Below, one piece after another: positions 47,219 to 60,124 of a DNA stretch of 64,000 nucleotides; the stretch's first letter is position 1, and every line of letters begins with the position of its first letter. The stretch lies in NCBI GenBank assembly GCA_916610825.1, contig OU744453.1, positions 20,265,301 to 20,329,300 on the forward strand. The letters run 5' to 3'. Both the position numbers and the translations under genes were made by a program. Under the pieces are notes generated by a model. The model was not told the DNA's origin and did no database searches. It saw only the letters and a list, made by a program, of their open reading frames with translations. This stretch comes from Haliclystus octoradiatus (Eukaryota; Cnidaria; Staurozoa; Stauromedusae; Haliclystidae).

Positions 47219-50200
47219 ATGTCCACATTCAACACGATGGCCAACAAAAGCACAGAAGGCGAAGAACGAACTCTTCTTCTAGATCGTTCTGTTGTTGCCA
47301 ATGAACTCAAGGTAGGCGCTACAGTACGTCCGATGAATAATCAAAGTGCCTTGATAATCAAAGATAGCATGATATTAACTGAAACTAGCACAAGAGTCTT
47401 TATAAATGAGAGGGGCATTGTTTATTAATGTGTGTATTGTCTATTTTATAAATGAACAACCTGTAAATGCATTTTATCGTGCTTGGGATTCATCAACAGA
47501 CCAGCACTTGCAAGAATTGCATTTCAAAATGTCTGAACTTCACTTAGATAAAATCATATCAATTAATCAGTTATTACGTTTATCGTCTTTATCGTACCTC
47601 TTCTATTTTTTCATAATTGGTCATTCGTTAGAAATTATTACGTGTGGGCCCTGTCTCATAGGCAAGAGCCCCGGAGCAGCGGGGGTGGCTGCCTCTCCTG
47701 CCCTTAAGGAGGGGGAGCGGGGGCAACCAGTGCCTTGCAGAAAGAAAAGTGGTGGTAGGCCTACATATGTTTCGTCCTTACGACTGTTCTTCGTTTTCTA
47801 ATGAGTACGGGCAGAGTCAAATACAGTGAAGACTCAAACAAACACAATCCATATCCATTAATAGTACATATAATTCCCACAATTGAAATAATACCAAGTT
47901 ACTGTAATGTTGATTATAATTGTCTAAGTCTAAGTGGTTTTGAACGTTATTCCCATGCTGAATAATAATAGGAAACAGTGTGTTATTTATACTAATTTAC
48001 TACATGATTAAGCATAATCTATAATTACTTACATTTGATGGTCTCAGCAAAACATTAATATACATTTACATCATTTTCTATAAGCATACAATTTAAGTAG
48101 TTTACATCAGCATTTGTTATTGTTTACGGATTTGTTTACGTTTATATATCAAGCTTACTTGTGCATTTTCTAATTATACAATATTCTGCTCCATGAAACT
48201 GAGACTTACTAAAAGTTTTAAAACAAGGAAGCCCAATCAGACGCAGCGGATTAGGACCTTGAGCGGGCCTATTTAATTCTGATTTATTGTCAACAAATTA
48301 ACAGATGAAAATGCATAGAAAACGCCTCCAAAACTCTATTAGTCAACCATTTATTCGTTAGACTCACGGCGAAGCCGTGAGACTTTGAAAGGTCTATAGG
48401 GCCAGCTGAAATTGATCTTTTAAAATTCTCTAGTCCAAATCAACCCAGAACAGAACAACAAACAATATTATTATTTTCACTCAACAAAAACTGCGCTTTC
48501 ATGTTCCCTAGCGATACCTATTACAGACTGTAATACATTATTATTAGTAGTGTAATACTGTTGGTGAGCTTTGCCTGACTTAATATACCCACCATGAGCT
48601 ACCATGAGCTACTTGAAATATCCCTTTTTCTTTTCCTTATTTTGTGGTAGGATCTACTGAGCTCTAGATCAAATTATCAAACACTGATAATTGCCGAGTG
48701 TGATCGTTTGAGTGCATCATCAATTCAAGAGCACATTCCTTACATCAATAATAACTTAGAATGCCTGATTATTCAAGAGACGATATGGTTTGACGATGAA
48801 ACACTTGAATTAGTGACAGCTTATTGTAACAAATTAAAAAAGATTGAACTTATTGGTTGTCTTTATAATATTACGACAACTGGTATTGAATCTATAGGAC
48901 GCAACTGTAGATTACTTGAGGCACTCTCTATTATATGCCCTGAAGGCAGAAGCATCGATTGGCAGCTCAATGACAAACTATTCCCCGCTTTAATCAATAG
49001 TTCATCTTCTAGCTTGAGTCATTTTGCTCTGTCCGGATTTACAAATGTAACCTTTGAGGGCATGAGAAATGTTTTGAATAATTTCAAGCAAAGCCTGCGC
49101 TCATTAAACGTAAGTTATCTACCAATTATCAATGACAAGACTGTGAAGGAAATTGGAGAAATATGTACACATATTCATTCACTTGACTTATCATACTGCA
49201 ATGGCCTTGAGGAAGAAGGACTTGTGTCAGTGACTGAATTATGTAGTCATTTAAGAAAGTTGAAATTATGTGGCTTAGAACTTTTAACAGACAATGCTAT
49301 TTTGGGGGTTTGTAGATCATGCCCTGATCTACGAGAAATCTATTTAGACCATTGTGCGTATTTATCAGAACGCTCCATTGCACACATCGGGCATTACTGC
49401 ATCCATCTTGAAGTAATTAGTATGAAAGACACAAACATGACTTATATACCATATTCATTTATAAATCTTGAACATTTAAAAGAATGCAATTTTTTTGATT
49501 GTGATCAACTGAGTACGTGTAATAATAGCAACACTGTAGACCTTACAAGCGTAGAGCAAATGAAATCTTTAGCCATGGCAAATAACATTACGTTTAGAAC
49601 AAAAGTTATGGTGTTAGGTGGCACTCAAAGCGGAAAAACAAGCACGTTGCTATCACTGCAGTCGTCAACACCAGCCGTGGCAGATGGTGAAACATTCAAC
49701 GTACCAGTTCATATTTGGTCACCTTATTGCGAAGCAGATGCTGCCCAGATTCAAAAAGGAGGTATGGACATTTACGCTGCGTTGCCAAAACTTTGAAATA
49801 ATGCAAATTCTGCTAAATGTCTTCCAGGTTGAATCTATTGATCCTATGTATGTCGCTTAAATCTGACTCGTTTAAGACTAACTTTCATCACATCCTAACA
49901 GATAAAAATATTTCTTATATTAGTTAGTAGTGTGTTATAAGAAATGTTAACTTATGAGAAGTTATGAGGAAATTTTTAATTTTTACCATTCATTCGTTCG
50001 ACTGTAAACACCAATTTCAGATCACGTGAGCATACCTTCGATTCTTAGCCGAATTTGTCTATTCATTGTTTATTGTCATATAGTTGTCATTTAATTAGAA
50101 TATAATTAGAATATTAAATTATGCTATGCAGCCTGTTTGTAGAGTTCTTGATGATCACTTTTAAAGCATTCTCAATTATCAGCGTTGTTATATTCATTGA

Positions 50201-59200: not shown

Positions 59201-60124
59201 ATCAAGATTCACATAAATATTAATTTTATTGGCTGCATTCATTAACAGACGCATTGGAGTAGGTCGCTTGTATGCCATCATACCTGTTTCATTTCTGCAC
59301 TTCCGTTGTAATTTCATGTTTCTGTAGAACCTAATACTGATGATGTGATAGCCGGTATTCATTCTCAACTATACAACTGTACTCACTCGTAACTCATTCC
59401 TTCGGACACTCGTTCATCCCCCTTCCCCGTCTTGACTTATGATCTCAACAGTCAACCATCTTATTAAGTACTGTCATCGTTTTTCCTGTAGCACACATAT
59501 GGTAGGCGCTAGCGAGACGGATGATATATGCACGCGTCAAAAGTGTGCATTCACTTAGAATAGAAATATACGCGCAGCTACTTAAACTAAACTTCGCACT
59601 GGTGACATAATATTTTCCATTCTCTATTTTCAGATGACGAGTTGGCCGGCCAGGAGACCGCTGATAATTCGACATTGAGGATTAATCAATTAAGTGTAAA
59701 ACGGTCCGTTCAGTTTGCGGATCAATCGCCACGGCATCACCACAACCGAATGACTACTGATGGGGAATTGAAACAATTGGCCGCTTCGACAGTAGCGGCA
59801 GCGGTTGCGGCAGCAACTGCAGAACACATTGCCAAACAATCTAATCCAACTATGGGGGCTAAAGCGGCGGCTATGGCTGCTAAAGTCGCAGATGCCGTTG
59901 CCCGTGGTGACTCCGATGCAGCGGCAAAAGCGGTTATCGCCACAGCACGGGCGGTTGATGAAGTTATAGCGATGCGGTCAAACCCGGAAGAAGACTCAAC
60001 AAACAAAACAAATGGCGGAATAATTAAAACCGCCAACTGCGACAATAACAATAGTACTAGTTTTAACAATGAAAGAAATTTATACCCGTCAGACAAGAAG
60101 AGTTCTGTGTGCGTCATATTATAG
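47219..60124 (+). CDS. LRR-Roc-COR (Roco) protein with TIR-like domain and C-terminal CaaX box (1281 aa, 15 exons)
   Basis: Exons: 47219-47311, 48651-49761, 50207-50268, 51476-51598, 51697-51848, 52253-52367, 54148-54369, 54457-54729, 54873-55058, 55597-55950, 56041-56161, 56338-56406, 56733-56907, 57517-57815, 59634-60124. All phases match. Residues about 40-330 are AMN1/FBXL-type leucine-rich repeats in one exon. The Roc GTPase has P-loop GGTQSGKT (354-361), WDCSG for G3 (417-420) and ASNCD for G4 (473-477). About 515-940 is COR, with INPERIVHSILLLHAK before it and FWQNGVYLRIGDIDVAVTA inside. Residues about 962-1105 look TIR-like: AVVFVSH, a helix, FLCACSC, CSLYLVVHD, ISIVVALL. The last exon is alanine-rich and ends SSVCVIL, a CaaX box favouring geranylgeranylation. 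Roco proteins are dimeric GTPases, some in innate signalling. The LRR-Roc-COR core is firm. TIR and CaaX are inferred from sequence pattern. Confidence 0.87.
48362..48380. repeat. Perfect 8-bp hairpin, CTCACGGC-GAA-GCCGTGAG
   Basis: A GC-rich stem-loop in AT-rich intron 1 of the Roco gene, within a GC-richer patch that may be a transposon remnant. A second GC-rich patch lies at 47650-47765. I could not delimit an element. Confidence 0.4.
51881..52050. repeat. Near-perfect 170-bp palindrome (fold-back element)
   Basis: Arms of about 80 bp (51881-51960 and 51971-52050) around a 10-bp centre CAATCGATTT. The arms differ by about one indel and a few substitutions. They share AAAAGTCAGAGAATCAGACA, GTCATGTTTGCTACTTG and GGCGATCATCAGGCAATCTA. 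It sits in Roco intron 5, just left of a long AT run. Confidence 0.9.
52087..52181. repeat. (AT)n microsatellite
   Basis: A run of about 47 AT units in Roco intron 5, just right of the fold-back element. Confidence 0.95.
52840..53850. repeat. Degenerate GTTCATGAACT repeat field
   Basis: Many copies of TTCATGAAC, AACTAGTTCATCAAAGTTCA and AACTGTAAGAGTTAATGAAC on both strands, in Roco intron 6. The palindromic words recall subterminal repeats of hAT elements. A LINE 3' tail (53045-53200) interrupts the field, so the repeat is older than that insertion. Confidence 0.6.
53045..53200 (+). mobile_element. CR1/L2-type LINE 3' tail
   Basis: Contains ACCACACATGTAAATGAGGA, GCCTGTTAGCCATTGTGCTA and a terminal ATAC tandem run (about 53136-53196). 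It matches the 3' UTR and tail of the LINE at 2.7-3.15 kb. Only the 3' end was inserted. Confidence 0.7.
55306..55565. repeat. (TTA)n microsatellite, about 86 units
   Basis: An uninterrupted TTA run of about 260 bp in Roco intron 9, about 30 bp before the exon-10 acceptor at 55597. The long poly-Leu, poly-Tyr, poly-Ile and poly-Asn frames across it are not genes. Confidence 0.97.

Follow-up and report, generated by a model that had tools for sequence, protein, structure and literature searches.

A stretch of 64,000 nt from the stalked jellyfish Haliclystus octoradiatus (contig OU744453.1 of assembly GCA_916610825.1, positions 20,265,301 to 20,329,300, forward strand; hereafter the window) contains, at 47219-60124, a gene model that raises the question whether one gene joins leucine-rich repeats (LRR), a Roc GTPase and a COR domain to a TIR-like segment and a C-terminal prenylation (CaaX) box and, if so, whether such a protein is new. 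The initial annotation had proposed this fusion in 15 exons, suggesting a possible new receptor or adaptor class, with the alternative that a neighbouring gene supplies the last exons. From the analyses below, the gene is real and most likely a single one, with a predicted protein made up of F-box/LRR-like LRR, Roc, COR, TIR, Ala-rich helices and CaaX box, and it is likely the Haliclystus orthologue of a sea-anemone gene described in 2016.

All 15 exons of the model were recovered, with GT-AG borders at 14/14 introns and compatible phases, and the joined coding sequence (CDS) of 3846 nt keeps a single frame, encoding 1281 aa followed by a stop. The joined protein carries the Roc motifs GGTQSGKT, WDCSG and ASNCD at the places given in the initial annotation, as it does the TIR-like stretches and the terminal CVIL, and an AATAAA is found at 60214, 90 nt 3' of the stop codon. 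The features are listed below; all 15 exons and the CaaX box are read from the joined CDS, with further evidence in brackets, and P0001 is the best-scoring relative, described in the following paragraph.

47219-47311, plus strand: exon 1, residues 1-31, with the start codon, weakly conserved (5/31 identical to P0001)
48651-49761, plus strand: exon 2, residues 32-401, leucine-rich repeats resembling those of F-box/LRR proteins, followed by the Roc P-loop GGTQSGKT (PDB, Pfam)
50207-50268, plus strand: exon 3, Roc switch II WDCSG
51476-51598, plus strand: exon 4, Roc
51697-51848, plus strand: exon 5, Roc G4 region ASNCD
52253-52367, plus strand: exon 6, Roc G5 region
54148-54369, plus strand: exon 7, last part of Roc and first part of COR (COR-A match below cut-off)
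54457-54729, plus strand: exon 8, COR (61/91 identical to P0001)
54873-55058, plus strand: exon 9, COR (comparison with P0001)
55597-55950, plus strand: exon 10, later part of COR (comparison with P0001)
56041-56161, plus strand: exon 11, COR-TIR linker (comparison with P0001)
56338-56406, plus strand: exon 12, linker with an invariant Trp-Leu preceding the TIR (alignment of the relatives)
56733-56907, plus strand: exon 13, first half of the TIR, RAVVFVSH ... LYLVVHDA (profile of the relatives)
57517-57815, plus strand: exon 14, second half of the TIR (profile of the relatives)
59634-60124, plus strand: exon 15, Ala-rich helical region and C-terminus (sole match in the genome search is itself)
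59750-59977, plus strand: conserved Ala-rich segment (57/72 identical to P0001, 51/72 to Hydra)
60110-60121, plus strand: CaaX-type box CVIL, Leu last (relatives CAIL, CTLF, CTIL)
60214-60219, plus strand: AATAAA, likely polyadenylation signal (sequence)

A first protein search (E up to 0.001; 6678 candidates) returned three proteins, namely P0001 (1274 aa, 6.6e-247), P0002 (1032 aa, 2.2e-212) and Hydra LOC101236161 isoform X3 (1238 aa, 5.1e-189). When the C-terminal half of P0001 served as query (E up to 0.1), the search retrieved Nematostella LOC5520491 (P0008; 1281 aa, 7.5e-78), together with P0009, apparently an older model of the same Nematostella gene, and four extra proteins with LRR or LRR, Roc and COR were found, at partial coverage, by a profile search (E up to 0.01). 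The profile and C-terminal searches need shared short words and scored part of the candidates; the relatives found are therefore a lower bound, and further holders, corals and bilaterians included, may have been missed. P0001, the Hydra protein and the Nematostella protein align near full length, at 39%, 35% and about 30% identity (362/1219 aligned residues for Nematostella), more than chance would give, which bears out the proposed order LRR-Roc-COR-TIR-CaaX in one gene. Exon by exon, exon 12 (2/23) and exon 1 show the lowest identity to P0001, and exon 11 is low as well (8/38), which makes the model least certain at its start and in the COR-TIR linker. In the host assembly (261,861,806 bases in 33 contigs; match counts are lower bounds), P0001 gave at least ten matches, five in order within the gene and five elsewhere with weak LRR/Roc similarity (E 6.3e-6 or worse). 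No second copy of the gene was found in this genome search, exon 15 matching only itself (1/1), and the gene is single-copy as far as the search shows.

In the N-terminal half, the best PDB matches of the LRR were F-box/LRR-repeat chains (top 2.2e-15), with Pfam LRR_6 scoring 15.6 bits, below its cut-off of 23.4. Pfam Roc was found at residues 349-477 with 32.9 bits, above the cut-off of 27, and COR follows directly, an arrangement that places the predicted protein in the Roco family. A structure model of Roc-COR from P0001 (residues 347-923, mean predicted local distance difference test score (pLDDT) 62) gave the bacterial Roc-COR structure 3dpu as the first Foldseek match (1.6e-13), the first five rows being all Roc-COR proteins; LRRK1, LRRK2 and prokaryotic Roco proteins make up the best alignments, occupying all of ranks 1-22 and accounting for 24 of the 50 rows listed, several of the LRRK2 rows having a root-mean-square deviation >10. 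No protein kinase domain was detected after COR in the Haliclystus protein by the Pfam scan (E up to 1).

As for the TIR, the Nematostella relative P0008 scores 48 bits with TIR_2 (cut-off 28), and the segment encoded by exons 12-14 of Haliclystus matches the profile of the relatives' TIR segment at 1.8e-12. In the C-terminal model of P0001 the segment has a predicted flavodoxin-like TIR fold, with SARM1 and further NAD-cleaving (NADase) TIRs among the best fold matches. The TIR assignment of the initial annotation is thus upheld by a homologous Nematostella protein whose TIR_2 domain scores, and by the fold modelled for P0001. It is the least conserved domain compared (34/148 residues identical to P0001, 33/132 to Hydra), the short linker being similarly conserved (7/30 identical to P0001). 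A PDB sequence profile search with the C-terminal alignment yielded one weak match, HEM_3.C9 (0.96), and in NCBIfam only matches below cut-off were obtained for P0001, P0008 and exon 15, the best TIR being 0.00018 in P0008. Separately, six-frame scans of the genome with TIR and TIR_2 found the same three exons above cut-off with both, none within the 64-kb window; two of the three lie in an opposed pair, whose adjoining open frames look Ig-like and membrane-spanning by eye.

The Ala-rich segment of exon 15 is the best conserved of the segments compared; it is modelled as helical with low confidence, no named family was assigned to it in the Pfam and NCBIfam scans run, and exon 15 had no match among phage records. 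The protein ends in CVIL, and all four distinct full-length genes (4/4) end in C-x-x-L or C-x-x-F, as in a CaaX box. A CaaX box with Leu (or Phe) as last residue favours geranylgeranylation, and CVIL is a predicted geranylgeranylation site.

Several observations weigh against the layout proposed here. COR-A reaches 15.5 bits at residues 590-684, short of the Pfam cut-off of 35.3, the G4 motif is ASNCD instead of the canonical NKxD, and the COR part of the P0001 model falls partly below pLDDT 50. No TIR was matched by Pfam in the Haliclystus and Hydra proteins at E up to 1, and P0001 reaches only 15.9 bits, below cut-off. The C-terminal model has a mean pLDDT of 57 and its underlying alignment includes the Nematostella TIR; it gave 0 PDB matches in Foldseek at E up to 0.001, with TIRs in 5 of the 50 rows listed and other folds, many of them flavodoxin-like, in the top rows. 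The Nematostella TIR alone found a single TIR in the PDB, at only 0.44. Finally, P0002, 92% identical to P0001, has as its last residue the one opposite the codon that intron 13 interrupts, and is therefore without the tail and the second half of the TIR; this could reflect either an incomplete gene model or a genuine short form lacking the anchor and half of the TIR. In the window, a reading frame continued beyond exon 13 (56907) would run into a stop at 56939-56941.

Was the protein to be regarded as a new class? The papers cited here indicate otherwise, and with them the statement that no described animal protein has this order fails. According to PMC5094078 (2016), Novel Gene 1 (NG1) combines LRR, Miro/Ras/Roc, a low-threshold COR and TIR_2, was present in every sea anemone species examined there, had a Nematostella protein as its sole significant TrEMBL match, and shows a dN/dS of 0.1211; the same source notes that TIR_2 is combined with GTPase domains in bacteria as well as in oyster, where C2 is added, and in Trichoplax, where MBT is, and the words "prenyl" and "CAAX" do not occur in its main text. 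Two Aplysia proteins combining LRR, TIR, Roc and COR are reported in PMC9334734, and a TPR-ROCO-TIR protein of the red alga Chondrus in PMC11378527. We take Nematostella LOC5520491 to be a member of NG1 because its architecture matches the description in PMC5094078, and the predicted Haliclystus protein, by its whole-length alignment to LOC5520491, has the make-up of NG1, with LRR, Roc/Ras, a low-threshold COR and TIR_2 joined in a single chain; P0008 is likewise 1281 aa long. It differs in that the TIR of Haliclystus and Hydra has diverged below Pfam detection, that of Haliclystus not being scored as TIR_2 by itself, and in a shorter BB-loop stretch. The search for orthologues in echinoderms and hemichordates that had been advised was directed at a different group, the animal being a cnidarian.

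Other known systems are more distant. LRRK1, LRRK2 and prokaryotic Roco proteins share the LRR before Roc-COR and the fold matched by the P0001 model, whereas the Haliclystus protein has no Pfam-detected kinase, carries a TIR, an Ala-rich tail and a CaaX box, and has an LRR resembling those of F-box/LRR proteins. Plant TIR-NB-LRR and animal NLR receptors unite LRR and a nucleotide switch with an output part, a TIR or another; the likeness to Haliclystus is a functional analogy only, its switch being Roc-COR and not NB-ARC or NACHT, and the domain order being different. The proteins of Aplysia, Chondrus, oyster and Trichoplax likewise hold TIR and Roco/GTPase modules in one chain, but with other added domains, the comparison being one of published domain make-up.

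Taken together, we consider it likely that the gene is the Haliclystus orthologue of NG1 and encodes a prenyl-anchored Roc-COR switch whose TIR acts as a scaffold in signalling of the innate type, a mechanism that we infer. In such a mechanism, GGTase-I (geranylgeranyltransferase I) would attach geranylgeranyl to the cysteine of CVIL, and the prenylated protein would sit on the cytosolic membrane face; the LRR would bind a ligand or partner, the nucleotide state and dimerisation of Roc-COR would relay this binding to the TIR, and the TIR would nucleate TIR-TIR or adaptor contacts. A putative immune role is suggested by the domain parts. That the model instead fuses two neighbours, an LRR-Roc-COR gene and a TIR/tail gene, is very improbable: such a fusion would agree with the end of P0002 near the exon 13 boundary and with the 1818-nt intron preceding exon 15, though intron 6 is comparable (1780 nt), and we reject it because P0001 and the Hydra and Nematostella proteins (transcript basis unchecked) hold both halves in one chain.

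The two remaining explanations concern what the TIR does. SARM1 and other NADase TIRs cleave NAD, and a TIR enzyme of the SARM1 or plant-TIR type, activated by Roc-COR, would be in keeping with the fold matches of P0001. In one alignment, moreover, Haliclystus has a Glu (APELL) facing an Asp of Nematostella, with Val in P0001 and Hydra, and this Asp is set against the Glu of the bacterial TIR 7uxr in the PDB alignment, in a column which we take to be that of the catalytic glutamate. In a second alignment the Haliclystus Glu is offset by one column from the Nematostella Asp and is accompanied by Asp in P0001, Ser in Hydra and Gln in Nematostella; as the two alignments differ by one column, the register at this position is uncertain, and no relative has Glu at the candidate catalytic position in either. 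Fold alone is no proof of function, and we regard such an enzyme as unlikely. Beside the second TIR strand, Haliclystus and P0001 have 6 residues fewer than Nematostella, and Hydra fewer still. Because both the Glu position and this long BB-loop stretch vary across the relatives, we consider a scaffold role for the TIR more likely than cleavage of NAD. LRRK-type Roco proteins act in development or trafficking, and a similar role here, with a TIR devoid of immune function, is possible though not the reading we favour: it would suit a TIR that is the least conserved domain compared and past Pfam detection in Haliclystus and Hydra, in contrast to the conserved COR and Ala-rich tail, but each of the three full-length relatives found has a TIR segment, and that of Nematostella scores clearly.

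What is new is the gene in a stalked jellyfish and in Hydra, the diverged TIR there, and the strongly conserved Ala-rich tail with its CaaX box; no paper on NG1 in medusozoans was found in our literature search, most subscription journals lying outside its scope. Since sea anemones, the stalked jellyfish and Hydra share an LRR-Roc-COR-TIR protein, the architecture probably dates to the cnidarian ancestor. PMC8260672 reports that prototypical NLRs are absent in all medusozoans it surveyed, which included a staurozoan without a NACHT protein. As a speculative and rather doubtful extension, the gene might represent a cnidarian-wide class of innate sensors in which Roc-COR replaces NB-ARC/NACHT, a conserved Ala-rich helical stalk leads to the prenyl anchor, and the TIR has passed from enzyme to scaffold, filling part of the role of cytosolic LRR sensors in medusozoans. 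Hydra and Nematostella are both laboratory animals, and their relatives of the gene allow direct tests of whether a Roco GTPase can drive the output of a TIR and of whether the protein is brought to a membrane by its CaaX box.

Elsewhere in the window, on the plus strand, an open frame of 260 aa at 60804-61586 looks by eye like the end of a LINE (long interspersed nuclear element) reverse transcriptase and had no Pfam match at E up to 0.01. The frame at 62106-62627 (plus strand) is an exon of an EF-hand protein (Pfam EF-hand_7, 3.1e-18), ending in the CaaX-like CTIS, and about 120 bp of it recur as an antisense copy within intron 9 of the Roco gene (about 55136-55255, minus strand; the alignment covers 41 residues and scores 180, whereas none of 300 shuffles scored above 43). 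Upstream, exons of a Wnt gene are found at 19841-21535 on the plus strand (Pfam wnt, 5.3e-09 and 6.5e-20), and an open frame with a SUI1 translation-factor domain lies at 13157-13642 on the minus strand (Pfam, 2.5e-10).
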